From a virus: DNA of 54,336 nucleotides. The stretch lies in IMG/VR virus record IMGVR_UViG_3300048927_000623, positions 1-54,336 of that record. One strand, given 5' to 3'. The position numbers and the translations under genes are program-made. Positions 2,113 through 54,286 of the stretch are shown piece after piece; position 1 is the stretch's first letter, and each line of letters opens with the position of its first letter. The notes below the pieces were generated by a model. The model saw only the letters and a program-made list of their open reading frames with translations. It made no database searches and was not told the origin of the DNA.

Positions 2113-2183
2113 CCGCAATGACGAATTCCATGGAATCGGTTGGCGGGTAAACCGCTGAAAGCTTGGGAGTGGAACTGGCCAAC

Positions 2184-3326
2184 ATGGAAACTGTTTTTGC
2201 CCTTTGCGCAATTCTGCTCCTCGCCTTCAATCTTCTCGGCGTCGTTCTGGCAGGCTGGCGGCTGAAAAGATGCGATACGGACAACGCACTTGTCCGGCAG
2301 AAACCGCCGGTATCACTGGTGGTGCCGCTGCGCGGCATCGAAACTTTCACGCCGCTGACGCTGTCGCGCGCCTTCCAGCTCAACTGGCCGGACTATGAGC
2401 TTCTGTTCTGCGTCGCCGACGAGTTCGATCCCGTGATCGAGGAAGTGCGCAAGGCAAGCGCGGCCTTCCCCGCAGTTTCAGCGCAATTGCTCATCGGCGA
2501 TGATCGCATCAGCGCCAATCCCAAACTGAACAATTGCGTCAAGGGCTGGCGTGCTGCCCGACACGAATGGGTCATTCTGGCCGATTCCAATGTTTTGATG
2601 CCGCAATCCTATATCGAAACCATGATGTCGGCCTGGCGGCCGGATAGCGGACTGGTCTGCTCGCCACCGCTCGGCTCCCGGCCGGATGGCTTTTGGGCGC
2701 ATGTGGAATGCGCCTTCCTCAACGGCTCGCAAGGCCGCTGGCAATATGCGGCGGAAGCCATCGGCATGGGCTTCGCGCAGGGCAAATCGATGTTGTGGAA
2801 CAAGCCGTTCCTGGAAGAGCGCGGCGGCATCCGCGCGCTCGCCGCCGAAATCGCCGAAGATGCCGCTTCCACGAAACTGGTCAGAAACGCCGGTCGCAAG
2901 GTACACCTGGTGTCGGCCCCGTTCGAGCAGCCGCTCGGACAGCGCCATGCCGGTGAGATCTGGTCGCGGCAGACCCGCTGGGCGCGGCTGCGGCGCGTCA
3001 CCTTCCCGCAATATTTCGCCCCGGAAATCCTCACCGGCGCGCTTCCCCCGCTCCTCTTCGCGCTCGCTGCCGCCGTTGCCGCGGATGCGAACCTTGCCGT
3101 CACCGCGATTGCCGTACTCGCCATCATGTATGGCCCGGAACTGGCGCTCGCAGCTCTCAACCGGTGGCCGGTATCACTCTATACCCTTCCGGCAATGGTC
3201 GCGCGGGATGTCATCATGCCATTCGTCTGGGTACGCAGCTGGATCGGCAGCGCGGTTGCATGGCGCGGCAATGTCATGACGATCGGCACGGCCGAAAGCA
3301 CATTGGCCGGACCTTCAGCGGACTGA
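2184..3326 (+). CDS. GT21-like glycolipid glycosyltransferase
   Basis: 380 residues from the ATG at 2184; a TTG seven codons earlier (2163) is an alternative. It begins with a membrane helix (LCAILLLAFNLLGVVLAGW), followed by a family 2/21 catalytic domain: VSLVVPLRGIE, VADEFDP, LADSNVLMP and QTRWARLRR (the Q-x-x-RW motif of processive enzymes). Two or three hydrophobic segments close the protein. It resembles ceramide glucosyltransferases and the rhizobial processive lipid glycosyltransferases that build diacylglycerol glycolipids at the inner membrane. The Pho-box-like promoter fits a role in phosphate-saving lipid remodelling. Sugar donor and acceptor cannot be told from sequence. It is the last chromosomal gene before attL. 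Confidence 0.82.
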   Translation: METVFALCAILLLAFNLLGVVLAGWRLKRCDTDNALVRQKPPVSLVVPLRGIETFTPLTLSRAFQLNWPDYELLFCVADEFDPVIEEVRKASAAFPAVSAQLLIGDDRISANPKLNNCVKGWRAARHEWVILADSNVLMPQSYIETMMSAWRPDSGLVCSPPLGSRPDGFWAHVECAFLNGSQGRWQYAAEAIGMGFAQGKSMLWNKPFLEERGGIRALAAEIAEDAASTKLVRNAGRKVHLVSAPFEQPLGQRHAGEIWSRQTRWARLRRVTFPQYFAPEILTGALPPLLFALAAAVAADANLAVTAIAVLAIMYGPELALAALNRWPVSLYTLPAMVARDVIMPFVWVRSWIGSAVAWRGNVMTIGTAESTLAGPSAD

Positions 3327-8829: not shown

Positions 8830-9288
8830 TTCCTGGGCGACCGGCTGTAGGCGCTTCCGCTCCAACTTCGCGCTCTCGATCTGCCCATGCGTGTATCCTG
8901 TCTTCTCGCCGTAGGTTGCAATCCAGTCGGCAGCGTCGGAACGAGTCATGAGCCTAAGGTCGAGGAAGGCCTCTTCGGCGCCGAACTGAACTGCCCACGC
9001 ACCAGTCCGTCGATAGACACCGGGGCAACAATCCAGGCATCGGACGTGGACGTTATCCAACGGCCGGAAGGCTTCTACGATCTTGTCCTTGCTCCAGAAC
9101 AGATGCGCATGGGCGATGTTGAAGAGACCGTTGAATGTCTCTCGGTGGTCACCGGTCAGGTCGCCTTCGGATGTGAATGAGGAGACCTGAGCGACGAGGG
9201 ATGCAAGGTCTCGCTCGAAGATCTCGAGGTGCTGTTCGTAGGTCAACGGCACGAAGACGAAGGACTGGCGGTTTCTGGCTCTGGTCAT
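8827..9288 (-). CDS. Hypothetical protein coupled to rep
   Basis: 153 residues from the ATG at 9288, which overlaps the rep stop as ATGA; a longer in-frame ORF reaches 9339 but lies inside rep. A helical N-terminal region (TYEQHLEIFERDLASLVAQV) is followed by a segment with HVRCLDCCPGVYRRTG, possibly metal-binding. No family recognised. Tight coupling to the replication initiator suggests a role in replication or its control, by context only. A perfect palindrome covers its stop codon. Confidence 0.68.
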   Translation of the reverse strand: MTRARNRQSFVFVPLTYEQHLEIFERDLASLVAQVSSFTSEGDLTGDHRETFNGLFNIAHAHLFWSKDKIVEAFRPLDNVHVRCLDCCPGVYRRTGAWAVQFGAEEAFLDLRLMTRSDAADWIATYGEKTGYTHGQIESAKLERKRLQPVAQE

Positions 9289-10838
9289 GCGAGGTACTCC
9301 ACTGCGTCGATGATTTCTCGGTGCCTCATGAGGATGCACCTGATGGTGTGCTCAAGCATCGGAGCCGTGATCTCCTTATGCACGAGGCTTCCGCCGATGT
9401 TCCATTCGAGACGCAACGTCTTCATCTCCCCCATCTCAAGCAGATGGGATTCCCGGAGCTTGTCGATGACCTCCGTCTGGATCCAGTGCGTGGTGCGAGG
9501 CTCGTCGTCGAATTCGACCCGAATGGTCGAGGCGGAATAAAAATCGACGTCGTTGTCCGCGACCGGCTTCAAGGGCGGTGAGACGCTGGTCGCAGGTTCG
9601 GCAGGCTTGAGAGCAGGCTCTTGTCCCGGGCGATAGCTGATGCCAGTCGGCTCCTTCCAGTCGGACAGCCACTTCATGAACGCCGCGCCGACTCCTTCGC
9701 TGGCAAGCGTGTCGAGGATCTGGCGACCTGTCAGAAGTCCGAGGAGACCGACCAGAACGTTAGGATCGTGCTTCGCCAAGGACATCATCGCCGCCCAGCG
9801 CTGGGCCATAAGAACGATGCTGACCTTCATCCTGCCGGCCGCCTGAGCGAGCAGCTCTTCGTTGGGTGTCTCGGTCACATGATCCAGCTCCGCCTTCTCG
9901 AAGATCTTGCGGATTCGCGCCCGGTCCAGCGACACCACGATCGGCTTCTGTTCTTCTGCCAGATGCTTCCTAGCGCGACCGACAGAGAAGACGATGGATT
10001 CCACAGGGCGCCCGCGGGTGGCAGCACGCCTCAGCTCGTAGTTCGCGACGAAACGGCGAACCTTGGCATTCGTGGAACCGTCTTCGGCGCCGAACATGTC
10101 GTCCATCGCGGGCTTCAGGCAATCATTCTCGAAATGCCCCCAGTGGAACTTGCCCTTCTTGGAGACATAGCCCAGCTCGTCCGCGAGCTCTTCCGGCTTA
10201 TAGAAGGTTGGATGCTGCTCATCGAGGCCGGCGACGTAGGCAAGCTTCGGATACAGGCGAGCCGAATACTTGCAGCGGAACCGGGCGAACGCGGCGACTT
10301 CGAGATGGGCGTATTGAGTGGCGGCAAGGATGACCTTGCGGACTGAAGGGTGCATGCGGTAGCCGATAATGCGCTCTCCAGACGGCAGCGTAATGTCCTC
10401 GCACGCCAGGAGCTGGATCCTGTTCGACGCGCGGCGGGTGCCGTCCATCTCGGTGAAATCGTATGAGACGTAGGTCTTGTTGATCGCGTCGATGTATTCC
10501 CGGATCCGATCAGACCGCGGAGTGTCCAGGAACGCCATCGCATCGGCGAAAGGCACAGAGTGTTCCGATGTGGCCGCGATCTCGATCCTGGCCGATGCCA
10601 TAAGGTATTCGTACAGAGCGTGGCTCTTCGCGGACATCGCCTCTGCAGGTGTGGCGCCCTCGGTCTCGCCGACGTAGCGGATGCTCCGGATCATGACCAG
10701 CGGCCGCTCGACGCGAGGATCCTCTTTCTCTGCGCGGTTCTTGTCGAGGACGGCAGACAGGTCTCCCTGGACACCTGTTCGGTCCGCTCCAGTGATTGAA
10801 CGTTGCGTCGTCGACCGACGGCGAAATGAATTGCGCAT
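9285..10838 (-). CDS. Rep_3-like plasmid-type replication initiator
   Basis: 517 residues, AGGAGG seven bases before the ATG at 10838. The central part looks like a Rep_3/RepA winged-helix initiator: YIDAINKTYVSYDF, GERIIGYRMHPSVRKVIL, and the diagnostic FARFRCKYSARLYPKLAY block (~residues 205-222). The C-terminal third is helical then proline-rich. Such initiators bind iterons and open the origin of theta-replicating plasmids. Repeats about 75-200 bp upstream fit its binding sites. This would give the phage plasmid-style replication; a lambda O/P-like pair was not found. The family call is by pattern and should be confirmed. Confidence 0.72.
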   Translation of the reverse strand: MRNSFRRRSTTQRSITGADRTGVQGDLSAVLDKNRAEKEDPRVERPLVMIRSIRYVGETEGATPAEAMSAKSHALYEYLMASARIEIAATSEHSVPFADAMAFLDTPRSDRIREYIDAINKTYVSYDFTEMDGTRRASNRIQLLACEDITLPSGERIIGYRMHPSVRKVILAATQYAHLEVAAFARFRCKYSARLYPKLAYVAGLDEQHPTFYKPEELADELGYVSKKGKFHWGHFENDCLKPAMDDMFGAEDGSTNAKVRRFVANYELRRAATRGRPVESIVFSVGRARKHLAEEQKPIVVSLDRARIRKIFEKAELDHVTETPNEELLAQAAGRMKVSIVLMAQRWAAMMSLAKHDPNVLVGLLGLLTGRQILDTLASEGVGAAFMKWLSDWKEPTGISYRPGQEPALKPAEPATSVSPPLKPVADNDVDFYSASTIRVEFDDEPRTTHWIQTEVIDKLRESHLLEMGEMKTLRLEWNIGGSLVHKEITAPMLEHTIRCILMRHREIIDAVEYLA

Positions 10839-19568: not shown

Positions 19569-19645
19569 GGTGTCTCGCTTTATCCGCCGCAGCCGATGTT
19601 GCGACGGATACCGAGGGACATCCTCCCGGGGCATCACCCCGGACG
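19569..19645 (+). promoter_or_regulatory. Structured intergenic element E1
   Basis: Most divergent of five copies. The outer stem GGTGTC (19569) pairs with GACATC (19617) through one G-U; the inner stem TATCCG.CGC pairs with GCG.CGGATA. Then GGGGCATC and CCGGA. An upstream GACATCAGG can pair with CCTGGTGTC instead, giving a mutually exclusive hairpin. It ends about 25 bases before the start codon of the next gene. Confidence 0.6.
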
Positions 19646-19668
19646 CTCAACAAACAGGGAGAAATCAA

Positions 19669-20271
19669 ATGAGCGCATACAAGATTGAAAACCTCGACGG
19701 CGGCCTCGCACTCGTCAGCGTCACCAATCCGCACATCTGTGACTGGGTCGATTTCGAAATCGGCTTCTTTCCGAGCGCCGGAGTCGTCGCGGCCCGCGTC
19801 GCGCTCTGCGACAGCGCCGGCAGCAACCTCTTCGCATTCGACGTCGAGGGTGCTGCCGATATCCGCACCGAGATGACGGAATGGCTCGAAGACAACGGAT
19901 ATTCCGTCAGCATCCCGTGCGACTACCGTTCCGACGATCGCAAGACGGCAGCACTTCGCGAAGCCCAGGCTCTTCGTGATCGCTTCCTTCGCGACTACGC
20001 GTCGCTCGACGCACTCTGGTGCGCTTCGTGGGTGTCGGAGGACGGTCAGGGATCGATGGATGACGACGGTCACGCCGAGCGTCCCGACCCCGCCGCCTTC
20101 GTCGCCGAGCTGCTCGATGTCTGCGGCGACACAGCACACGACCGCAAGGGAATCCTCGCCGGCCGCGTCAACCTGACACGCTACCGCGGTCATTGGAATC
20201 GCGGGCCAGAAGTCCTCGAGGTCGAGGAATTCGACGCCGAGGATTTCGCCCCGCTGCCCGCCGCGGCCTGA
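19669..20271 (+). CDS. Hypothetical acidic protein behind element E1
   Basis: 200 residues, ATG with GGGAGAA seven bases upstream, the same ribosome site used by the other genes of this cluster. Strongly acidic. Segments include HICDWVDFEIGFFPSAGVVA near the start and a helical LREAQALRDRFLRDYASLDA in the middle. No family recognised. Its TGA stop is the first part of element E2. A long antisense ORF here is rejected. Confidence 0.65.
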   Translation: MSAYKIENLDGGLALVSVTNPHICDWVDFEIGFFPSAGVVAARVALCDSAGSNLFAFDVEGAADIRTEMTEWLEDNGYSVSIPCDYRSDDRKTAALREAQALRDRFLRDYASLDALWCASWVSEDGQGSMDDDGHAERPDPAAFVAELLDVCGDTAHDRKGILAGRVNLTRYRGHWNRGPEVLEVEEFDAEDFAPLPAAA

Positions 20272-20334
20272 TGCCCCACTTTATCCCCTCCGTCTTCGCT
20301 GGCGGAGAGGATACCGGGCGGCATCGCCCCCGGA
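20269..20334 (+). promoter_or_regulatory. Structured intergenic element E2
   Basis: Begins at the stop codon of the gene before. Outer stem GATGCC (20270) / GGCATC (20320); inner stem TATCCCCTCCG / CGGAGAGGATA with one mismatch; CCGGA at 20330. GGGAGAA ribosome site follows. Confidence 0.7.
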
Positions 20335-20371
20335 CTTCCATCCGGTCACGCTCAAAACTGGGAGAAATCAC

Positions 20372-20770
20372 ATGAGCACCTATACTGAAACTCACATTAT
20401 CCCGCGAACAGACCGCTCACCACTTCGCTTCAAGGGTTCAGTTATCGCGGCCCAGCGCTTCGATGGAGGGATCCATGGACGTGTCTGGATGCGACTGCTC
20501 CGGAACAGCCGTCGCCAATTTGTCTGTGCGGTATCTCGCATGGCTGCGGTTCAGGGGCAACGAGACTCTGACGAGGCGGTGGTAGTCTCAGGAATCCTCG
20601 ATGTACTGAAGTTCTTCGGCGCGTCGCGAGACGCACTGGCTCTCTATCGCGATGCGCGATGGCACGGTCTCGCGGACTTCATCGCTGGCCTCCCGATCTC
20701 CATGACGGATGAGCAGGTCGTAGAACACGCAGCGCTCTGGCTGCGGTCGGACACTCCGGAGGCCGCATGA
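20372..20770 (+). CDS. Hypothetical protein behind element E2
   Basis: 132 residues, GGGAGAA before the ATG. Basic N-terminal half (RVWMRLLRNSRRQFVCAVSR), helical acidic C-terminal half. The end overlaps the next start by 4 bases (ATGA), the only coupled pair in this cluster. No family recognised. Confidence 0.63.
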   Translation: MSTYTETHIIPRTDRSPLRFKGSVIAAQRFDGGIHGRVWMRLLRNSRRQFVCAVSRMAAVQGQRDSDEAVVVSGILDVLKFFGASRDALALYRDARWHGLADFIAGLPISMTDEQVVEHAALWLRSDTPEAA

Positions 20771-21045
20771 TGACCGCCGCCGACCGCAAGAGCGCATTCC
20801 GCAAGCTGTCGTCGGGGCATGACCTCGACGACCTCGCCAGGCTCCTCGGCGTGTCCGTCGACACGCTGCGCGGCTGGCACAAGCCGAGCAACCCTCGGGC
20901 GCCGTCGGAGGAAGCCCTCAGCCGACTCCGGAAAGCCGTCATCTCTGAGCTGACGGACAGGATCCGCAGCCTCGGGCTCGATGTCATTCCTCGCCGAAAT
21001 TCGGCGGAGGAACGAAATGGCAACATTTTTGACAATGCCGCCTGA
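20767..21045 (+). CDS. Small HTH DNA-binding protein
   Basis: 92 residues, coupled to the preceding gene. A helix-turn-helix is visible: HDLDDLARLLGVSVDTLRGW (~residues 18-37), followed by a Pro-containing wing and a helix rich in Arg. It resembles XRE/transposase-type HTH modules. It may be the local regulator of the small-gene cluster. Its TGA stop opens element E3. Confidence 0.66.
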   Translation: MMTAADRKSAFRKLSSGHDLDDLARLLGVSVDTLRGWHKPSNPRAPSEEALSRLRKAVISELTDRIRSLGLDVIPRRNSAEERNGNIFDNAA

Positions 21046-21105
21046 TGCCCAGCCCTGACCCCTGCCGACAGCGCAGGGGTCATAGATCGGCATCGATCAC
21101 CCGGA
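21043..21105 (+). promoter_or_regulatory. Structured intergenic element E3
   Basis: Outer stem GATGCC (21044) / GGCATC (21089); perfect 10-bp inner stem TGACCCCTGC / GCAGGGGTCA with a 7-base loop; CCGGA at 21101. AAAGGAGA ribosome site follows before 21135. Confidence 0.75.
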
Positions 21106-21134
21106 ATGCCAACACCCCAAAAAGGAGACAAGAC

Positions 21135-21686
21135 ATGACAAAATACGCACTCACACGCCTCGACGGCCGCATTATCGATGTCGGCCTGACGCTCGCCGAG
21201 GCCGCCTCGGCACTGCTGACATACGACAGCGCCGAGTTCGAAATCCGAGAAGACGAGGACGGCTGGATGGTCATCTTCACGCGCGCCGCGCGGTCAGGCC
21301 GTCAAAAATGGACGTCGACCGTCTTCTGCGCGCCGACGGAAGAAGAGCTTTTTCTCAAGGTTGTCAACGCTTTCGACAACGCGACAGATGCCCTCGAGGC
21401 CATCGAAGACGATGCCGACAGCGGCTGGTGGGAAATCGCGCCGGCAGGCGAAACGGCCTTCTACGGCTACGGCTCACGCCGCGAGGCCGACGAATACGCC
21501 AAGCTGCTCGACGAGCGCAGCGAGCACTACGACTTGCATGTCGTAGTGTACCACGTCCGTCCACTTTCCTTGAGAGAGGCGTTCGAGATGCGCAAGAAGC
21601 TCGAGGCCGAGGGCGACGAGCTTGACGTTGCGCTGCAGGCGATCCGCGACGAGCTTGACGACCGCGCTGCCGAAATCGCCGCTTGA
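21135..21686 (+). CDS. Hypothetical protein behind element E3
   Basis: 183 residues. It opens with a beta-hairpin-like segment (YALTRLDGRIIDVGLTLAEA), has a central acidic stretch and the motif ETAFYGYGSRREADEYAKLL, and ends in a charged helix (LEAEGDELDVALQAIRDELD). No family recognised. The stop TGA starts element E4. Confidence 0.65.
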   Translation: MTKYALTRLDGRIIDVGLTLAEAASALLTYDSAEFEIREDEDGWMVIFTRAARSGRQKWTSTVFCAPTEEELFLKVVNAFDNATDALEAIEDDADSGWWEIAPAGETAFYGYGSRREADEYAKLLDERSEHYDLHVVVYHVRPLSLREAFEMRKKLEAEGDELDVALQAIRDELDDRAAEIAA

Positions 21687-21751
21687 TGCCCCATTTTATC
21701 GCCTCCGGCACCATGTCCGGAGGCGATAACGAGTGGCATCCGCACACCGGA
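21684..21751 (+). promoter_or_regulatory. Structured intergenic element E4
   Basis: Outer stem GATGCC (21685) / GGCATC (21735); perfect inner stem TATCGCCTCCGG / CCGGAGGCGATA; CCGGA at 21747. Compared with E2, C-A in the stem is replaced by the pair G-C. Confidence 0.75.
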
Positions 21752-21790
21752 CAAACTCACCAAATCCATGAAACGAGGGAGAACACACAC

Positions 21791-22195
21791 ATGGACGCGA
21801 TCAAAAAAGTTTACCTGACCGACGACGAGGACATCCTGGCGACTTGCGCCGTCGGTGTCCATCGCCCCACGCTGCGCGTTCATCTGCCGTTCGGCCAGTC
21901 ATACGACACGCTGTCGGACATCGAGCGCGCCGTGCTCTGGGCATTCGAGCGGGTGGTACAGACGGAACTCGCCGGCATCGGCCGAGCCTGGATCTTCCGG
22001 GGTCTGTCGTACAGCGAGCCCGACCTCGAGGACCTCAAGAATCCTCTCGTCATGCATGTGCGCGCCCTCGAAAGCGTTCTCTTCGCGCCGGACTATGAGG
22101 AGCTGGTCGACAGCGCTGACACCGTCGACCACGGCTGGGCGCGGTTCGTCGAGGTGACCGAAGCCTGGGCCGAGGACATTCTCGCGGCCGCATGA
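21791..22195 (+). CDS. Hypothetical acidic protein behind element E4
   Basis: 134 residues, GGGAGAA before the ATG at 21791. Acidic (pI clearly low), with segments YDTLSDIERAVLWAFERVVQ and VDHGWARFVEVTEAWAEDIL. The size, charge and spacing resemble phage inhibitors of host enzymes, but nothing in the sequence proves that. The stop opens element E5. Confidence 0.63.
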   Translation: MDAIKKVYLTDDEDILATCAVGVHRPTLRVHLPFGQSYDTLSDIERAVLWAFERVVQTELAGIGRAWIFRGLSYSEPDLEDLKNPLVMHVRALESVLFAPDYEELVDSADTVDHGWARFVEVTEAWAEDILAAA

Positions 22196-22255
22196 TGCCT
22201 CACCCTGACCTCTGCCGACGCTGCAGGGGTCATAGAGCGGCATCGCTCCACCGGA
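22193..22255 (+). promoter_or_regulatory. Structured intergenic element E5
   Basis: Outer stem GATGCC (22194) / GGCATC (22239); inner stem TGACCTCTGC / GCAGGGGTCA with one T-G pair where E3 has C-G; CCGGA at 22251. GGGAGAA ribosome site follows. Confidence 0.75.
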
Positions 22256-22289
22256 TACTTCCGGTGTCAACAAAAGAGGGAGAACTGAA

Positions 22290-22718
22290 ATGGACACTGC
22301 ACACATATGCGCGGCCGAAGCCGCAGAAGCCAGGGCGACGAGGGTCACGCACATGCACCTCGAGCGCGAAGCCAACGGCCTGGTCGCCGTCGTCTGGGTC
22401 TCGACGTCGAATCGAGTCCTTGAGCTGCGCGAGCTGCTCGACGAGGACGGTCTGCTGCCGGAGCACGTCGCCGACAGCCAGGCCTTTGCCGCCGGCTTCG
22501 TCGATCGGTCTTCGGGCGAGCGGCTGCCGATTCCACCCGCTGCGGTCGGCAGGCCGGAGACGACAGCGGAAAAGCATCGATTCATGGACTGGTGCGCGTG
22601 GACAAGCCGCGCTCACGAATACATCGATCGCCACGGCCGCCGCGCGCTGCACGCCCTCCAGAGGGAGGAAGCTCTGGAAGCCCGGGCGACACCGCGTCGG
22701 GCATACGCTCTCGCATGA
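22290..22718 (+). CDS. Hypothetical protein behind element E5
   Basis: 142 residues. N-terminal Ala/Glu-rich helix, then VAVVWVSTSNRVLELRELLD and a His/Arg-rich C-terminal half (HEYIDRHGRRALHALQRE). Last gene of the cluster; a truncated element start (TGATGCCTCACCTG at 22716) and a terminator follow. No family recognised. Confidence 0.62.
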   Translation: MDTAHICAAEAAEARATRVTHMHLEREANGLVAVVWVSTSNRVLELRELLDEDGLLPEHVADSQAFAAGFVDRSSGERLPIPPAAVGRPETTAEKHRFMDWCAWTSRAHEYIDRHGRRALHALQREEALEARATPRRAYALA

Positions 22719-22759
22719 TGCCTCACCTGTGCATACGACGACTACGAACGCTGAACCCC

Positions 22760-22795
22760 AAGCCCCCGCGAGGTCATCCTCCGGGGGCTTTTTTC
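22760..22795 (+). terminator. Rho-independent terminator of small-gene cluster
   Basis: AGCCCCC and GGGGGCT arms around a 15-base loop, followed by TTTTTT. It ends the 19.7-22.7 kb unit. Confidence 0.85.
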
Positions 22796-22796
22796 G

Positions 22797-23385
22797 TTTC
22801 CGGGGCACGCTGCCACCTCGACCTCGAATCCACGATTTCCGCCGGCGCTTGACACATCCGGCCACGAAGGTCACCTTTTCAGTATTCGCACAAATAGCGC
22901 CCCGATGCCGCCCCCGGCTCGGGGCGTTTGCGTTTCCGGGTCGTAGACATCGCGTCTCCCCGGATCGCCGCCGCCGGCCTCGTCCTCCCCCTTGGCTCGC
23001 GGCGGCTTCATTTCGAATCCTTCTGCAGGCTGCAGGCGCCAGTCACGCCAGGTGCCGCACCCCATGCCTCCAATCCTCGACGATCGTTGAGACTGGGAGA
23101 ACGCACCATGTCAGCGAAGGCCAGATTGTGGCGCATCCAGTGCATCTGCCATCGTGCTGGCACTCGTCTAAGGTCGCTGACGCAGACGCGCTGAACGCGC
23201 CGTTTCCGGCCATTCGCGCGGCCTATCGAAGACGGTCGGCATCAGGAAACGAATAGGTTCTTCCCCGACCTTCAAAGCATCACGGGGGGCGGACGACCGC
23301 GCCTGCAAAATTTCCGGGATTTTTCATAAGGGGGGAGCCGCCGCCGCATTTGGCGACCTCCAGCCTCTCCCTAACGGAGGATTCG
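22797..23385. other. Intergenic region before terminase
   Basis: A second hairpin at 22898-22926 (CGCCCC/GGGGCG, then TTTGCGTTT) may act as a back-up terminator. A possible 28-codon ORF at 23108-23194 has GGGAGAA before its ATG but no other support. A lambda-cosN-like segment is listed separately. Otherwise nothing clear. Confidence 0.45.
23284..23303. other. Candidate cos site
   Basis: GGGGGGCGGACGACCGCGCC resembles the lambda cosN core (GGGGCGGCGACCTCGCG) and has imperfect dyad symmetry (GGCGG/CCGC). It lies about 80 bp before a Nu1-like gene, the position of cos in lambdoid phages that carry the same terminase type. Confidence 0.4.
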
Positions 23386-24012
23386 ATGACTGAGGAAAGT
23401 CGGAAAAAACCGACCAAATCGCCCTCAATGTCAACTATTTCCGACAAAAGGCCGAAGAAGCTCACTCAGGAAGCTCTCGCCAGACACCTCTTTCTCGGAA
23501 GGGGCAGCCGCAAGGTACGGGAGCTTTTCGAAAAGGGTGTTTTCCCTGCAACGGTCGACCAGTCGAACCTCACGGTGGCTGACCTCGACATCTGCCGGGA
23601 AGCCTACATCGAACACCTCCGCGCAGCCGCTGCCGGCCGCGCCGAGAACCAGCCTTCCGACGATCCTGTCGATGACAGCCGCGATCCGGATGTGCAGCTC
23701 GCTCTCCTTCGCATCGAGCAGATCGAACTGGCGAGGATCAAGAAGCGGAAGACGCTCGGAGAACTCGTCGAACGCACAGATCTCAGACTGGCCGTCTCCG
23801 GTGCCTTCACCCGCGTGAAAACGGTCCTTCTCAAGATTTCGAAGAAGCATGCCGGAACCATGATCGTGATGGAGGACGAGCTCGTGCTTCGGGAGTATCT
23901 CGATGACCGCATCAGAGAAGCCCTCGACGAACTCGCGTCCACGCCCGTCGAAACGATCGGCAGGGAAGTCACGGCGGACGACATCGAAGTCGACTTCGAA
24001 GACCAGGACTAG
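23386..24012 (+). CDS. Terminase small subunit (Nu1-like)
   Basis: 208 residues from the ATG at 23386 with ACGGAGG upstream. N-terminal helix-turn-helix-like part (LTQEALARHLFLGRGSRKVRELFEKG), a central helical oligomerisation region (LRIEQIELARIKKRKTLGEL, VERTDLRLAVSGAFTRVKT) and an acidic tail, as in Nu1-type small terminases. It recognises cos and recruits the large subunit. The large-subunit gene overlaps its last 110 nt in another frame. Confidence 0.82.
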   Translation: MTEESRKKPTKSPSMSTISDKRPKKLTQEALARHLFLGRGSRKVRELFEKGVFPATVDQSNLTVADLDICREAYIEHLRAAAAGRAENQPSDDPVDDSRDPDVQLALLRIEQIELARIKKRKTLGELVERTDLRLAVSGAFTRVKTVLLKISKKHAGTMIVMEDELVLREYLDDRIREALDELASTPVETIGREVTADDIEVDFEDQD

Positions 24013-25999
24013 CGTCACGGACACCCTGTTCGTCGGCTGCGATAAGGTCGCCGCTGACATCCGCAAGGCGTTCGCCATCATCAAGCCGCCCAAGCGCATC
24101 CGGATCTCGGAGTGGGCGACGAATGCCCGTCTCAAGGACGGCAGCCGATACCATCCGTGGCCATTCCAGATCGAATGGCTCGACGAGATGAACAATCCGC
24201 GGACCAGGAAGATGACCGTCATGAAGTCGACCCGTGTCGGCTACACGCAGGCCATCCTCGCAGGTCTCGGCTATTTCACGGCGCACGATCCACGCAACAT
24301 CCTGATGGTCCGCCCGACGATCAAGGATTCGCAGAAGTTCTTCAAGGAGCATGTCGCCCTCGTTCTGAGCTGGCCGATCATGAAGTCGCTGAGCCTCGGC
24401 AAGGCGGTCTTCGGCGCGCTGCGCGACACGATCACCGAGAAATACTTCCCCGGAGGCTTCATCAAGGGTGTCGGATCCGAATCCCCGAACGGCCTTCGCG
24501 ATCTCGATGTCGATGTCCTTATCATGGACGAGATGGACGGCTTCGCTATTACAGCGGGTGTCGACGGTGACCCGAGCAAGCTCGCCGAAGAACGACTGCT
24601 GCAGAGCTACGATCCGCGCAACATCGCTGGAAGCACGCCAACGGACGAGGCTGTCAGCAAGATCAACCGACGTTTCCTGGAGTCTGATCAGCGCCGCTAT
24701 CACGTTCCTTGCCCGACCTGCAAACACATGCAGGTGCTGGTGTGGGGAAATGGCGGCAAGGATGATTCCGGCCTCCACTGGTTCCCCAAGAAGGCGCCGA
24801 CGGAATACTGGTATCAGTGCGAGAAGGGTTGCCGGATCCCGGAGGCCAAGAAGCTCTGGATGCTCGAAAACGGCAAGTGGATCGCACAGTTCCCCGAGGT
24901 CTACGAGCGCACCGGCCATGCCGGGTTCCACATCAACGCCCTCTATTCCTTGCAGCCGAACGCCAAGTGGCCTGATCTGGTCGAGAAATTCCTGGATTCC
25001 TACAAGTCTCCGGTGACCTTCAAGACCTTCGTCAACACCACGCTCGGCGAGGTCTGGCGGGTCATGGGCGATCAGCCGGATTGGAAGATCCTTTCCGACC
25101 GTCGCGACGACTGGAAGCAGGGCATCGTTCCCTACGGTGGCTGTTTCTTGACCGCCGCCGTGGATATCCAGGCTGCCGACGGTGGCCGTCTCGAATGCTT
25201 CGTGTGGGCGCATGGCCGCGGCGGATCGTCATGGCTGGTCGAACACAAGGAGTTCATCGGGTCGCCATATGAGGCGAAGGTTTGGGATGAATTGACCGAG
25301 TTCGTCCATCGGAAGTGGTCGCACGAGAACGGAATCAGCATGCTCGGCCTTGAACGCACCGCGGTCGACGTCGCCTTCGCCACCCGTCCTGCCTACAACT
25401 GGTGCAGGAAGATGGGGCTGGACAAGTTCGTTCCAATCCGCGGCTCGCAGAACCTGAACGCCCCGCCGATCTCCGCTTCGACCACCATGGAACTGCAGAA
25501 CAAGCAGGGTGCCAAGGCGAAGACGCAGGAAGTGCGTGTGTTCATGATCGGCGGCCACGTCCTGAAGCAGGAACTCTATGGTCTGCTGCGCCTCGAAAAG
25601 CCTTCCAAATCGGACAAGCCGTATCCTCTGGGCTACGTCCACATCCCGAAGTGGCTGGACGAAGGCACCCTGAAGGAGCTGGTCGCCGAATACTGGCATG
25701 CCGAAAAGGCCGAATGGGTGAAGACCGGGGCGAACGAAATGCTCGACTGCTGGTGCTACGCCCGCGCCATGGCCATCGCCAGAGACATGGAAAAATGGAC
25801 GGAAGCCCAGTGGGTCGCACTTGAGGCGATTTATGGCAACCCCGCCTTCGTCATGCCCCTGGAGCCGGAACAGCCGAAGATCACGCAGCGCGCCGACGAT
25901 GTCAGCGCCGATCCGGATTCGCAGCCGGCCAAGCCAGTAGCAGCACAGAAGCAGCGTCGTCAGCAACAGTCGTGGCTGTTCGGTGGTGGACGCAGATAG
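23903..25999 (+). CDS. Terminase large subunit (GpA-like)
   Basis: 698 residues if the ATG at 23903 is used; it has GGGAG eight bases upstream. The first ~36 residues overlap the small subunit and are Ser/Thr/Lys-rich, so a later non-ATG start is possible. The ATPase part has an unusual Walker A-like MKSTRVGYTQ and Walker B VDVLIMDEMDGF. A four-Cys zinc-like pair (CPTC...CEKGC) lies near residues 270-310. The C-terminal nuclease region follows. This is the lambda GpA family, which cuts at cos and pumps DNA into the prohead. Confidence 0.92.
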   Translation: MTASEKPSTNSRPRPSKRSAGKSRRTTSKSTSKTRTSVTDTLFVGCDKVAADIRKAFAIIKPPKRIRISEWATNARLKDGSRYHPWPFQIEWLDEMNNPRTRKMTVMKSTRVGYTQAILAGLGYFTAHDPRNILMVRPTIKDSQKFFKEHVALVLSWPIMKSLSLGKAVFGALRDTITEKYFPGGFIKGVGSESPNGLRDLDVDVLIMDEMDGFAITAGVDGDPSKLAEERLLQSYDPRNIAGSTPTDEAVSKINRRFLESDQRRYHVPCPTCKHMQVLVWGNGGKDDSGLHWFPKKAPTEYWYQCEKGCRIPEAKKLWMLENGKWIAQFPEVYERTGHAGFHINALYSLQPNAKWPDLVEKFLDSYKSPVTFKTFVNTTLGEVWRVMGDQPDWKILSDRRDDWKQGIVPYGGCFLTAAVDIQAADGGRLECFVWAHGRGGSSWLVEHKEFIGSPYEAKVWDELTEFVHRKWSHENGISMLGLERTAVDVAFATRPAYNWCRKMGLDKFVPIRGSQNLNAPPISASTTMELQNKQGAKAKTQEVRVFMIGGHVLKQELYGLLRLEKPSKSDKPYPLGYVHIPKWLDEGTLKELVAEYWHAEKAEWVKTGANEMLDCWCYARAMAIARDMEKWTEAQWVALEAIYGNPAFVMPLEPEQPKITQRADDVSADPDSQPAKPVAAQKQRRQQQSWLFGGGRR

Positions 26000-50082: not shown

Positions 50083-50949
50083 CTAGGTTCTCTTGATCGC
50101 TGACGGCTGAGACTGCTTCACAACGCTGCCGTCGCGGGTGATCGTCGTTGTCCGGACGGTCTCCACACCTTGGTATTCCACGGAGAAGCCGACCTGATGC
50201 AAGTGATGGTCACTGCCGCCAAAGCATTCGTGAAACGCTTTTAGGATACCGACCTGCTGCAGCGTCTGCGGCGCCGGAGTCGGGTTGTTCCTCGGCGCAG
50301 GTATCGTGCCGGGGAATAGGTAGATGCACGGCGGCGGCAGCTCATATGGCCCGATCGTCGTCACAGGAGCGCCACCTGCAGAAACCTTGGGGCACGGCCG
50401 ACCGATGGTTCCGCATGCCCAGTCCCAGATGAGCAGACCGTCGACCCGCTGACTGCGGGAGATGATCTCGGCCGACAGCCGCGTGTGGATCCCGGACCAT
50501 GCATTGTGAGGCGGCGAAGCGCCCGGGTTCGAACAGACGCTCCAGATGATGAATTCCTGGACGTGCGGCGGCCTCTCAAAAATATTCGTATTATTTCCGT
50601 CGAGACAACCCTTCAGCTCTATGGCGGCCTTCCTGCCGTCCAGCAGCTCAACGACGTAGTCGTGCCGATTGGCTTCGCCGGCCGACTGCCACTCCGCGAT
50701 GGCGCCTTGGTCCTGCATGTAGTTCAGAACGTGCCGGACGAATTCCCGCTTCTCGGACATCGTCGCAGAATACTGCCCTCGGACACGTTCGACGGCGCCG
50801 CGGAAGAGGCCGGAATTATAGAATTCCTTCTCGTCCAGGCCGTGGTCGCCGAGCTTGTGAGCTTCCGTCTTCAGAACTTCGGCGAACTTCTCGATCTGTT
50901 TCCGCAGGTCAGCGTTTGCAATGCAGGGGATCGGCGACTCTGCCGTCAT
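50083..50949 (-). CDS. PD-(D/E)XK nuclease, likely type II restriction enzyme
   Basis: 288 residues, start overlaps the methylase stop (ATGA). The catalytic pattern lies at ~98-115: HDYVVELLDGRKAAIELKG (Asp, then Glu-x-Lys). Two Cys/His/Pro-rich segments follow. Coupling to a C5 methylase and Vsr strongly suggests the restriction half of a type II system. Cleavage site unknown. Confidence 0.78.
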   Translation of the reverse strand: MTAESPIPCIANADLRKQIEKFAEVLKTEAHKLGDHGLDEKEFYNSGLFRGAVERVRGQYSATMSEKREFVRHVLNYMQDQGAIAEWQSAGEANRHDYVVELLDGRKAAIELKGCLDGNNTNIFERPPHVQEFIIWSVCSNPGASPPHNAWSGIHTRLSAEIISRSQRVDGLLIWDWACGTIGRPCPKVSAGGAPVTTIGPYELPPPCIYLFPGTIPAPRNNPTPAPQTLQQVGILKAFHECFGGSDHHLHQVGFSVEYQGVETVRTTTITRDGSVVKQSQPSAIKRT

Positions 50950-52109
50950 GCCACGTGTATCTCGTCGGTTGATTCGTCCGACGAGATTACACCCGCGAGG
51001 GGTTCCAGCAAATGATGAGCGAGGAAGCGGACGACCGGAACGGCAACACCGTCGCCCATCAAGTGGTAGGCCTCGTTGTAGCCCTTCGGGAGCTTGTAGG
51101 TCTCCGGCAGCCCCATCAGTCGCGCGGTCTCCCGGGAGGAGATCAGACGGCTGCGCACGACATTGCCGTCGACGACGATGATCGTCTGGCGGGAGGAACC
51201 GCCAGCAGGCGTGCGAAGGCAGCCGGCCACATCATCGAAACGAACTTCGGCGCGCACGCCACGGCCTTCGGCATCCTCACGGGTTCTCTTGTAGATGCCG
51301 CCTACCATTCGACGACCGGCGCGCTTGGCAGCCTCGACCTTGGCGCGATTCAGAGGCGACATAGCATCGAGGAGCTTTGCGGTCTCTTCCTGCGTATGCC
51401 ATTCCACCGAGGTGGGGTTTTCTTCGATGATGTCGGCGAAGGTCGACGTGCGCATGGCGGGCATCGACAGGTTCCACCAGACCCAGTTCTTCATGGCTCC
51501 ATCCGGAACGCGCTCGACGGCATTGCGCAGACCGCGCGTGTGGAAGGGCATCGTCGGTCCCGGAGCGACCAGAGCGGCATCGATCTCGATATCGTCGCGG
51601 ACACCGATCACAAACAGGCGCGGACGGGATTGTGGAACGAAGACGGCAGCGTCGATGACGAGCGCGCCGTAGCGATATCCATGGTCGGTGAAAGTCTGAC
51701 AGATCGCGGCGAAATCCTTGCCGCCATGGGAGGTCAGGGTGCCGTTGACGTTCTCGAGAGCGATCACTCGGGGAGCGCGGTTGTCTTCCTTCAATTCGCG
51801 GATGATGTCCCAAAACGGATAGAAAGTGCCGCTGCGCTCTCCGCGCAATCCTGCGCCGCCGCCAGCGAGGGAGAGATCCTGACAGGGGAACGAACCCCAC
51901 ACGAGATCGGCGACACCGGGCAGCTTCTCGATCTTGACCTTGCGGATGTCATCGACAAGCAGCTCGCCACCAAGGCCCCAGTTGAGTTGGTACGTCAGGC
52001 CTTTCTTCTTGTCGAAGTCGTTGGCGAACATGCATTCCCAGCCCTTGCCGAGGCCAGCACGCGCCATCCCGGCGCCTGCAAAGAACTCGTAAAATGTGGG
52101 CTTGGACAT
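50946..52109 (-). CDS. DNA (cytosine-5) methyltransferase
   Basis: 387 residues from the ATG at 52109, GGGAG five bases upstream. Motif I FYEFFAGAGMARAGLG, motif IV GSFPCQDLSLAGG with the catalytic Cys, motif VI LENVNG, motif VIII PQSRPRLF, and motif X GDGVAVPVV. It protects DNA from the coupled nuclease. Located between Vsr and the nuclease; its own promoter region holds an inverted repeat. Confidence 0.9.
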   Translation of the reverse strand: MSKPTFYEFFAGAGMARAGLGKGWECMFANDFDKKKGLTYQLNWGLGGELLVDDIRKVKIEKLPGVADLVWGSFPCQDLSLAGGGAGLRGERSGTFYPFWDIIRELKEDNRAPRVIALENVNGTLTSHGGKDFAAICQTFTDHGYRYGALVIDAAVFVPQSRPRLFVIGVRDDIEIDAALVAPGPTMPFHTRGLRNAVERVPDGAMKNWVWWNLSMPAMRTSTFADIIEENPTSVEWHTQEETAKLLDAMSPLNRAKVEAAKRAGRRMVGGIYKRTREDAEGRGVRAEVRFDDVAGCLRTPAGGSSRQTIIVVDGNVVRSRLISSRETARLMGLPETYKLPKGYNEAYHLMGDGVAVPVVRFLAHHLLEPLAGVISSDESTDEIHVA

Positions 52110-52129
52110 GATCACTCCCGATTCTTTTC

Positions 52130-52155
52130 CACAGGATATCAACAGGCATCCTGTG
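52130..52155. promoter_or_regulatory. Inverted repeat before methylase gene
   Basis: CACAGGAT (52130) and ATCCTGTG (52148) separated by 10 bases, 20-45 bases before the methylase ATG. A second pair TAAAC/GTTTA lies just upstream. Likely an operator for methylase control. Confidence 0.5.
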
Positions 52156-52201
52156 AATAAACTCTAATAGTTTACGTTTTGTTCTCTTTCCAGAACTTTA
52201 T

Positions 52202-52681
52202 TCATGAACTCCTGCCTTGCCCGGCAGGCTGCGGCAACCCGAAACTTGATGGACCCCCAAGAAACTGCGTCAGCTTCTCTGCCAGCGCGACTCGGTCCTT
52301 CAGTTCGCATTCCCACACCGTCAGAACACTCCATCCTGCTTGTTCCAGGCTGGACACGTTCCGGGCATCGCGATCCTTGTTCCTGCCAACCTTCGCCAGC
52401 CAGTAGTCCTGCCGGGTCGAAGGGATCCGCGCGCCGCGCTTGCAATCGTGGCCATGCCAGAAGCAGCCGTGGATGAAGATCACCTTCTTGCGGCCGGCGA
52501 AGACGAGATCGGGCTTGCCCGGCATCATCTTGCTGTGCAGCCGATATCGGTAGCCCATCGAGTGCAGCAGGCGCCGAACGATCATCTCCGGCGCGGTGTC
52601 CTTCGACTTCACGCGGGACATCGTCCAGCTCCGGTGTTCGGCAGTCTCAGGCATCCCTGAAACCCGTCGGGGAGCGATCAT
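52202..52681 (-). CDS. vsr: Vsr-type very short patch repair endonuclease
   Basis: 159 residues, start overlaps the Panacea stop (ATGA). Vsr motifs: RSWTMSRVKSKDTAPE, MGYRYRLHSKMMPGKPDLVF with the catalytic Asp, and HGCFWHGHDCKRG with zinc-binding Cys/His. It nicks at T-G mismatches that arise from deaminated 5-methylcytosine, complementing the adjacent C5 methylase. Confidence 0.92.
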   Translation of the reverse strand: MIAPRRVSGMPETAEHRSWTMSRVKSKDTAPEMIVRRLLHSMGYRYRLHSKMMPGKPDLVFAGRKKVIFIHGCFWHGHDCKRGARIPSTRQDYWLAKVGRNKDRDARNVSSLEQAGWSVLTVWECELKDRVALAEKLTQFLGGPSSFGLPQPAGQGRSS

Positions 52682-53160
52682 TCCTGGAGCGTGGCGTTGA
52701 GCTCGCGGTAAGCATTTGCTGACGATAGCAGATCAAGTGCTGCGCCTCGTTCACCAGAGAGGATGGGGTATGTAGAATACACAAGCTTAATGAACCCATC
52801 CCAGTTCAGTGTCTTCGTATTACTTATGACGTGATCTAGGATGCGTTGTTCCCAATCACTCAAGGCTACGTTGGTCGCCGCTGGATCGACCAATTCAATC
52901 CGCTCTTTCCGCTTGCCGTACATATTCGTCTCAGATCGCACCTTGAAGGCGGGATCATCAAGAGCCATCTGGTGGACGTCGTCAACATAAGGTCCGAAAT
53001 GATGAAACCGCCAGTTGATCGGCGTCATCTGGCTTCCGTGATCTAAAGCGGCCTTCCAATCTGCCAAGTAGACCATCTTCGTGACGCGGGCTTTCGAGAG
53101 CTCGTCCTTATGAGGGTAGTTCGCGATCAGGTATGCGACAGCATCACGTGTTGTGGCCAT
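52678..53160 (-). CDS. Panacea-domain (DUF4065-like) protein, putative antitoxin
   Basis: 160 residues from the ATG at 53160, two bases after the stop of the membrane-GAF gene. The Panacea/SocA pattern is visible: AVAYLIANYPHKDELSKARV, TKMVYLADWKAALDHG and INWRFHHFGPYVDDVHQMAL. Panacea domains act as versatile antitoxins paired with many different toxins, usually the adjacent gene. Here the partner would be the membrane-GAF protein or the nuclease cluster. Confidence 0.72.
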   Translation of the reverse strand: MATTRDAVAYLIANYPHKDELSKARVTKMVYLADWKAALDHGSQMTPINWRFHHFGPYVDDVHQMALDDPAFKVRSETNMYGKRKERIELVDPAATNVALSDWEQRILDHVISNTKTLNWDGFIKLVYSTYPILSGERGAALDLLSSANAYRELNATLQE

Positions 53161-53161
53161 A

Positions 53162-53989
53162 TCAGAATCCTCGCGTAGCAGCGAAATCGAGAGAAGGCTC
53201 TCGTTCACCCATTACTTTGAGCAAGTGCGCAATGTCCTTTCCGGTGGCACCGTAAATATGGTGTTCCAAGAGCTCGACGGAAAACCTATTAGCGTCACTG
53301 CTCTCAAACACGACAATTGCGTCCCGGACACTATCGCCATGTCCGTTAAGAGCAAAAGCTGCGATCGAACGTGCCTTCATCCCGAGTTTCTTCACCACCC
53401 CCACGGGCAACTTCCATTCATCTCGACTCCGAGCGCAATATCCGTCGAGATCCTGCACGGGGTCAGGAAGATCCTGGACCACGCACTTGCCGTCGCCTCG
53501 CGACCAGGCGGTGCCAATGACCCCTTGGTCAACGGGGTAAACCCCGCGGCCTGGGCGATCCAGCTCCGGCAACACTGCAAACCGTCCGACCATTGTGAAC
53601 GAGGTCCCTCTGTGCCGATAAACGCTCACTCGGTCGCGGGCATCGAGACTGAGGACTTCAGCCAGCACCTTCAGTCGATTGTCCCATATCGCAAAATAGT
53701 CGCTGCCGAAGTTCTGAACCAGTTCGGTCGCGTCTTCCAGTTGCTGCTCAAGTTCGCGATTGCGGCTCGCAAGTCTTGCTTGTGCAATTCCGCCGTACCA
53801 TGCGCCTGCCACGGTGCCGATGACAGCAATTCCGCTGCCAACACGTGCCCACAGATTCTGGTTTTCATCCAGAACGACCACGCACAAATCTTTGATGACA
53901 GAGAGCCCGATCCCAGACACTACCAAGGCGATAGTTGCCTTGTATTCGTCCAACCACCGCCCAGCCTGCTCGAAAGCACCACGCGCCAC
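53162..53989 (-). CDS. Two-helix membrane protein with GAF-like domain
   Basis: 275 residues from the GTG at 53989, GGGAGG six bases upstream; a GTG at 54040 is the longer option. Two membrane helices (~18-40 and ~48-68), a short coiled coil (RNRELEQQLEDATELVQNFG), then a GAF-like sensor domain: RVSVYRHRGTSFTMVGRF, GVYPVDQGVIGTAWSRGDGK, ARSIAAFALNGHG. It would sense a small ligand at the inner membrane. With the Panacea gene it could be a toxin-antitoxin or abortive-infection pair; that is inference. Confidence 0.66.
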   Translation of the reverse strand: MARGAFEQAGRWLDEYKATIALVVSGIGLSVIKDLCVVVLDENQNLWARVGSGIAVIGTVAGAWYGGIAQARLASRNRELEQQLEDATELVQNFGSDYFAIWDNRLKVLAEVLSLDARDRVSVYRHRGTSFTMVGRFAVLPELDRPGRGVYPVDQGVIGTAWSRGDGKCVVQDLPDPVQDLDGYCARSRDEWKLPVGVVKKLGMKARSIAAFALNGHGDSVRDAIVVFESSDANRFSVELLEHHIYGATGKDIAHLLKVMGEREPSLDFAATRGF

Positions 53990-54129
53990 CAAAACCCTCC
54001 CACGCTCGCCGCGAGATTGCCATGAGTCGGGGGTTGCCACCAGAGGTCAAAAGGCAGCTCGAAATGAGACTATGGCACTCTCGGTGATGATCTAAAACGC
54101 AGCCGATTCCGAGTTGGCCGCGACCGTAT

Positions 54130-54209: not shown

Positions 54210-54286
<77 letters not shown>

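Follow-up and report, generated by a model that had tools for sequence, protein, structure and literature searches.

A repeated, structured RNA element in a small-gene cluster upstream of a phage terminase

The window analysed here is the whole of a 54,336-base virus record (IMG/VR record IMGVR_UViG_3300048927_000623) whose genes include those for terminase, portal, capsid and lysozyme. Upstream of the terminase, six small genes form a cluster (19669-22718), and five hairpins, referred to as E1 to E5, occur ahead of and between these genes (Table 1). A previous reading of this DNA from its letters alone (the sequence-only reading) had proposed a five-copy structured element at this locus, and we found its features where it had put them, give or take a few bases. 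The hairpins measure 51-56 nucleotides (nt), and in all five the next ATG follows 40-50 nt after the hairpin end. E2, E3, E4 and E5 (56, 51, 56 and 51 nt) start within TGATGCC, inside the TGA stop of the preceding gene, and have the outer stem 51 or 56 bases across and the two inner-stem classes that had been described. No gene ends at E1, which has a leader position. The motif CCGGA is present 4-6 nt past the outer stem in E2-E5, as had been reported, and comparison with related phages showed no conservation of it outside the window phage. The reported GGGAGAA-type ribosome site was confirmed for E1, E2, E4 and E5 but not for E3, which has AAGGAGAC.

Table 1. Features of the small-gene cluster and the adjacent terminase. 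ORF, open reading frame; aa, amino acids; HTH, helix-turn-helix.
Feature	Position	Strand	Basis
E1, first cluster leader, diverged, outer stem GGTGTC/GACATC	19569-19622	+	found by model built without E1
Gene 1, 200 aa, function not assigned	19669-20271	+	ORF; no PHROGs/Pfam match
E2, inner-stem class A	20270-20325	+	sequence and covariance model
Gene 2, 132 aa, no family match	20372-20770	+	ORF
Gene 3, 92 aa, small HTH-like protein	20767-21045	+	ORF, homology, position
E3, inner-stem class B	21044-21094	+	sequence and covariance model
Gene 4, 183 aa	21135-21686	+	ORF
E4, inner-stem class A	21685-21740	+	sequence and covariance model
Gene 5, 134 aa, no family match	21791-22195	+	ORF
E5, inner-stem class B	22194-22244	+	sequence and covariance model
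Gene 6, 142 aa, final cluster gene, no family match	22290-22718	+	ORF
16-nt exact remnant of E5 start (5' part only), no functional copy	22712-22727	+	exact repeat; model score equal to noise
Terminator-like hairpin and T-run, end of cluster	22760-22797	+	sequence, fold
Terminase large subunit (TerL)	23903-25999		

The elements share one plan, consisting of a 6-bp outer stem, a 6x6 region and an inner stem of at least 10 bp, which together form an irregular helix of about 22-24 bp-equivalent. The 6x6 region between the stems is constant: n2-m5 and n4-m3 pair in every copy, n3.m4 is without exception a purine-purine mismatch, and the following two positions are mostly unpaired. A short second hairpin (CCGGA...TCCGG or CCGGGG...CCCCGG type) was also observed behind E1 (19623-19643), E2 (20330-20345) and E5 (22251-22267), and by eye behind the copy in the related phage L139 (7573-7590), but not behind E3 or E4.

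Several lines of evidence place these elements beyond chance. The fold of each leader is better than those of its own dinucleotide shuffles (z -3.5 to -4.9), and a structure-only descriptor gave 37 overlapping matches in the window, 33 of them inside the five elements, against a local-shuffle mean of 4.2. A covariance model built from E2-E5 only, a check of the kind that the sequence-only reading had called for, retrieved E1 at 35.2 bits (E=1e-6), which bears out the view of E1 as a diverged fifth copy. Beyond E1, the only sites in the window that scored above noise were the same sites on the opposite strand. The supposed truncated sixth copy at 22716 is real as an exact 16-nt remnant, but it is missing the 3' arm and its model score is at chance level (8.3 bits, E=6.5). 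No Rfam 15 family reached its gathering score in the region; when thresholds were loosened, the sole hits were to ctRNA_p42d (E=0.015), located at the terminator, and to DsrA (E=1.5).

To describe covariation, we used nine copies from four genomes (the window phage and its relatives L003, L005 and L139), with the loop masked; among these, L003 and L005 have almost the same second copy. In this set 97.5% of the cells are paired and both sides have changed at 11 of the 18 pairs, figures to be read with the relatedness of the copies in mind and with the fact that arms were matched by hand before counting, which leans towards structure. None of 500 shuffles matched the observed number of paired cells, the double changes or the covariation score, and pairing fell to 31-37% when the 3' arm was slid by one base. 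Compensating changes also occur in the outer stem, with T-A replaced by A-T in L139 and C-G by T-A in E1 and L003. The claim that changes between copies mostly keep the pairing is therefore upheld, and conservation of primary sequence alone, the outcome that had been named as speaking against it, is not what the copies display. Among the non-Watson-Crick pairs of the stems there are nine G.U against two A.C (four against two as distinct column states), an excess that favours folding of the + strand, although it is a weak test alone. Helix length and the 6x6 region stay constant while the stem letters vary. As the mismatches are kept while the letters change, a recognised shape is indicated. 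Judged by this covariation, the elements are a real, undescribed RNA element whose fold is conserved while its letters change, and the phage RNA element first suggested from the window alone is strengthened by the relatives.

The related phages were gathered by a TerL search in IMG/VR, which yielded L003, L005, L006, L007, L004 and L008 (64-68% identity), L139 (58%) and L140 (55%); L137 is from the same contig as L006, and L138 from the same contig as L007. L003 and L005 each contain two elements (E of about 4e-9 and 3e-5) and L139 contains one (E=2e-11), all upstream of the terminase, at the same locus as in the window. The model found no element in L137, L138 or L140, and none elsewhere in the four element-bearing phage records outside the small-gene cluster upstream of the terminase. 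In all four of these phages one copy lies directly 3' of a small HTH gene, which in L139 was identified from its position and type, since similarity to gene 3 was not significant. The L003 and L005 copies behind the HTH gene have no nearby gene start, so the link of the element to the upstream stop is no looser than its link to a start. Between this copy and the next gene (L005 4230-4420, L003 5235-5418) there is a promoter-like TTGACA and a long leader. Hairpins with the same plan of 6 bp, 6x6 region and inner stem, in unrelated letters, precede gene starts at L140 3428-3477 and at about 6893-6947 in L139. We considered these as far-diverged copies, but they fit by fold and eye, not by the model, and were excluded from all counts.

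Further searches extended this set no further. Three specific pattern scans of IMG/VR (2.9 million viral contigs) returned no phages beyond these relatives, and the 118 stretches that matched a loose pattern (TGATGCC...GGCATC...CCGGA) looked chance-like when folded. In a blastn search, the region matched none of 50,697 phage records. TerL searches of genome contigs revealed no close relatives, and 385 alphaproteobacterial genomes gave TerL matches at about 28-41% identity only. The covariance-model search of these 385 genomes was empty; with 16 candidates scored per genome and no positive control, it carries little weight. All copies found lie in the small-gene cluster ahead of the terminase, and in four related phages only. 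This is unlike a mobile repeat of the REP/MITE type, with copies at unrelated sites, and the known mobile repeat unrelated to gene starts that had been envisaged as a counter-explanation did not emerge, as there is no scatter apart from gene ends.

What the element does can be narrowed down from its surroundings. Folded together with their flanks, the tested leaders leave the ribosome site 58-89% unpaired in the predicted ensemble; when E1 and E5 were folded without flanks, alternative folds paired it. No T-run follows any of the five elements and the terminator scan lists none of them on the + strand, in agreement with the earlier view that they are not terminators. The scan for sigma70-like promoters was likewise empty in the region. 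A mostly open ribosome site, together with the lack of a T-run and of a sigma70-like promoter, leaves processing, stabilisation or protein binding. A promoter, a terminator, a dimeric DNA operator or occlusion of the ribosome site would all fit poorly. Translation control or RNA processing, as originally proposed, thus remains the right field, and within it our analysis tentatively favours putative intercistronic RNase III-type processing or stabilisation signals over binding of a regulatory protein, at a confidence a little short of even. The five hairpins would be parts of one messenger RNA (mRNA) that reaches from a point ahead of 19569 as far as the terminator near 22797. Host RNase III, or a similar double-strand endonuclease, may recognise and cut each hairpin, yielding mRNAs of one or two genes with structured ends. 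Such processing would determine how stable and how productive the message of each gene is, and would leave open the ribosome site that lies 40-50 nt downstream.

Three points weigh against processing of this kind. The 6x6 region is symmetric with embedded pairs, whereas the internal loop of the RNase III site R1.1 of phage T7 is asymmetric, with 4/5 nt (PMC6121014). The outer-stem letters GATGC/GCATC and the internal loop are conserved beyond what a double-strand nuclease needs. Finally, the copies behind the HTH gene in L003 and L005 lack a gene start within 190 nt.

The conserved parts of the element could instead be read by a molecule. With less confidence, the element may be bound by an RNA-binding protein of phage or host, or by a small ligand, giving joint control of translation or decay for all genes of the cluster, as in an RNA regulon; recognition would fall to the outer stem and the mismatched 6x6 region, with the inner stem as mere support. 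That the outer-stem letters and the loop pattern are better conserved than the inner stem, that the mismatches sit at fixed positions, that an operon holds several copies, mostly ahead of gene starts, and that the HTH gene lies directly 5' of one copy in each element-bearing phage are all consistent with this. However, no partner gene tracks the element: the HTH gene is also present in L137 and L140, which are negative with the model, and this weakens the candidacy of gene 3 as the partner regulator. The ribosome site is mostly exposed in the predicted folds with flanks, and the L003 and L005 copies behind the HTH gene stand far from any gene start. It is rather unlikely that the full form of this idea holds, in which a dedicated factor reads one undescribed structured RNA that stands before most genes of a small-gene set with rapid turnover. 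If it were true, a gene captured behind a leader would gain the same control at once, the leader acting as both regulator and landing seam.

Strong stems immediately past stop codons, with an inner-stem sequence free to vary, would also suit plain stabilising hairpins at 3' or 5' ends that shield against exonucleases or insulate translation without any specific cut. We regard this as unlikely, since the conserved 6x6 mismatches and outer-stem letters would be superfluous for it. The suggestion that the repeats are seams for swapping genes is only partly supported. Despite about 94-95% identity, L003 and L005 differ in the gene between the first-element leader and the HTH gene, which is unrelated in the two; the exchange, a single event, runs from a few codons past that leader to the HTH gene, with leader, ribosome site and first codons unchanged. 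Judging from this comparison, the leader can border recombination, which would fit modular exchange behind a fixed leader, but selection for exchange is unsupported. That the leaders are mainly such seams, with an incidental fold, is very unlikely: unrelated genes do follow similar leaders within one phage, but homologous exchange wants like letters and the inner stems vary in a paired way, which only a structure explains, and just one exchange was seen. A DNA element (operator, promoter, or attC-like cassette site folding as single-stranded DNA) is very unlikely as well, for although the elements are near-palindromic, are scored by the model on both strands and separate small genes in cassette-like order, their arm spacing varies between 50 and 56 nt, unlike a dimer operator, the region lacks a sigma70-like promoter, wobble pairs are biased to one strand, and no attC core motif (GTTRRRY/RYYYAAC) was seen at the hairpin ends when the sequence was read by eye.

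The genes of the cluster offer few clues to function. None of the six matched PADLOC or PHROGs, so the proposed anti-defence role found no support, and the only Pfam hit was to HTH_29 in gene 3, with a score under the cut-off. Gene 3, whose start overlaps gene 2 and which has no element before it, is related to gene c of L005 (blastp 9e-8), and its relatives were also found by tblastn. No relatives of gene 4 were found in PHROGs, Pfam or a peptide-pattern search. Gene 1 is a weak relative of the 'LEWLD' cassette proteins (profile E=8e-5 with a 13-protein set, 0.018 with all related-phage ORFs). The motif (T/S)LEWLD...LV marks an undescribed domain common to small cassette proteins, with members in the window (19669-20271, gene 1 being a weak one), L005 (3325-3888 and 4420-4926) and L137 (6647-7558).

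The phage probably infects rhizobia-like bacteria. The window ends resemble, in parts, rhizobial replicons, so an RNase III of the rhizobial type is plausibly present in the host. A restriction-modification system, with genes for a type II restriction enzyme, a DNA cytosine methyltransferase and a Vsr endonuclease side by side (50083-52621, - strand), shares about 81% identity with a Rhizobium ruizarguesonis plasmid across 1.7 kb and could be either phage cargo or host flank. Near them are a SocA/Panacea antitoxin-like protein (52678-53208, -) with a possible partner ORF (53162-54040, -) and, at the right end, a tRNA-Pro (54210-54286). The left end may be host DNA, with an FtsH-like AAA protease containing an M41 peptidase domain, unusual for a phage record (5417-7429, -), a DUF192 protein (116-811) and a glycosyltransferase (2169-3326). 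A Rep3-type replication initiator (9285-10694, -) would suit a prophage that replicates like a plasmid.

The element adds a structured RNA that is backed by covariation and has no Rfam entry, from a group of phages of which only a few relatives have been sequenced, and it provides a handle for locating the variable small-gene cluster in such phages. If it is read by a protein, it marks a phage regulon. By position, the nearest published repeats are the Start-Associated Sequences (SAS) and Extended SAS (ESAS) of cluster K mycobacteriophages, where departures between repeats give no support to RNA pairing and DNA-binding sites are favoured (Pope 2011, PMC3203893). Both are repeated inverted-repeat units that stand immediately ahead of some of the small non-structural phage genes, and the genes that follow them are unrelated. 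However, pairing is unsupported for the 17-bp inverted repeats of ESAS, while the opposite holds for our elements, with their 11 compensating pairs. The 13-bp SAS sequence at the start codon, GGGATAGGAGCCC, was absent from all leaders when read by eye, and SAS/ESAS occur in mycobacterial phages, the elements in probably rhizobial ones.

In phage T7, early mRNA is processed by RNase III at intercistronic hairpins. The T7 signals are R0.3, R0.5, R1, R1.1 and R1.3. As a yardstick, we folded the T7 early intergenic regions in the same analysis and measured four sites, placed from what is known of T7 and from the fold, as the record does not mark them. Each of the four folded into a two-stem hairpin, 39-53 nt long, and the ATG came 19-27 nt past its end. 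In both systems multiple two-stem hairpins with an internal loop lie between genes and are followed by a ribosome site and an ATG; E2-E5 and the copies of the relatives are, like T7 sites, intercistronic, with two stems around an internal loop and about two helical turns. Five of nine copies overlap the upstream stop by 2 nt, and R0.5 and R1 likewise begin in the upstream stop codon. Unlike the T7 sites, the elements are longer (50-56 nt), with somewhat longer helices, a hairpin-to-ATG distance of 40-56 nt, unrelated sequence, a different host group, a symmetric 6x6 region and freely varying inner stems. An asymmetric, R1.1-like internal loop is not found in them, but R1.3 as folded has a near-symmetric loop, so asymmetry may not be required. 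T7 R1.1 is cut by the RNase III of Sinorhizobium meliloti, an enzyme that, compared with its E. coli counterpart, depends on longer duplexes (PMC6121014). As the loop is unlike that of R1.1 and cleavage is only putative, we do not file the elements as members of the T7 family. The T7 early-mRNA RNase III sites are their closest architectural match, and if the elements are RNase III signals, T7-like intergenic cutting would extend to unrelated phages, probably rhizobial ones, whose copies preserve shape over letters.

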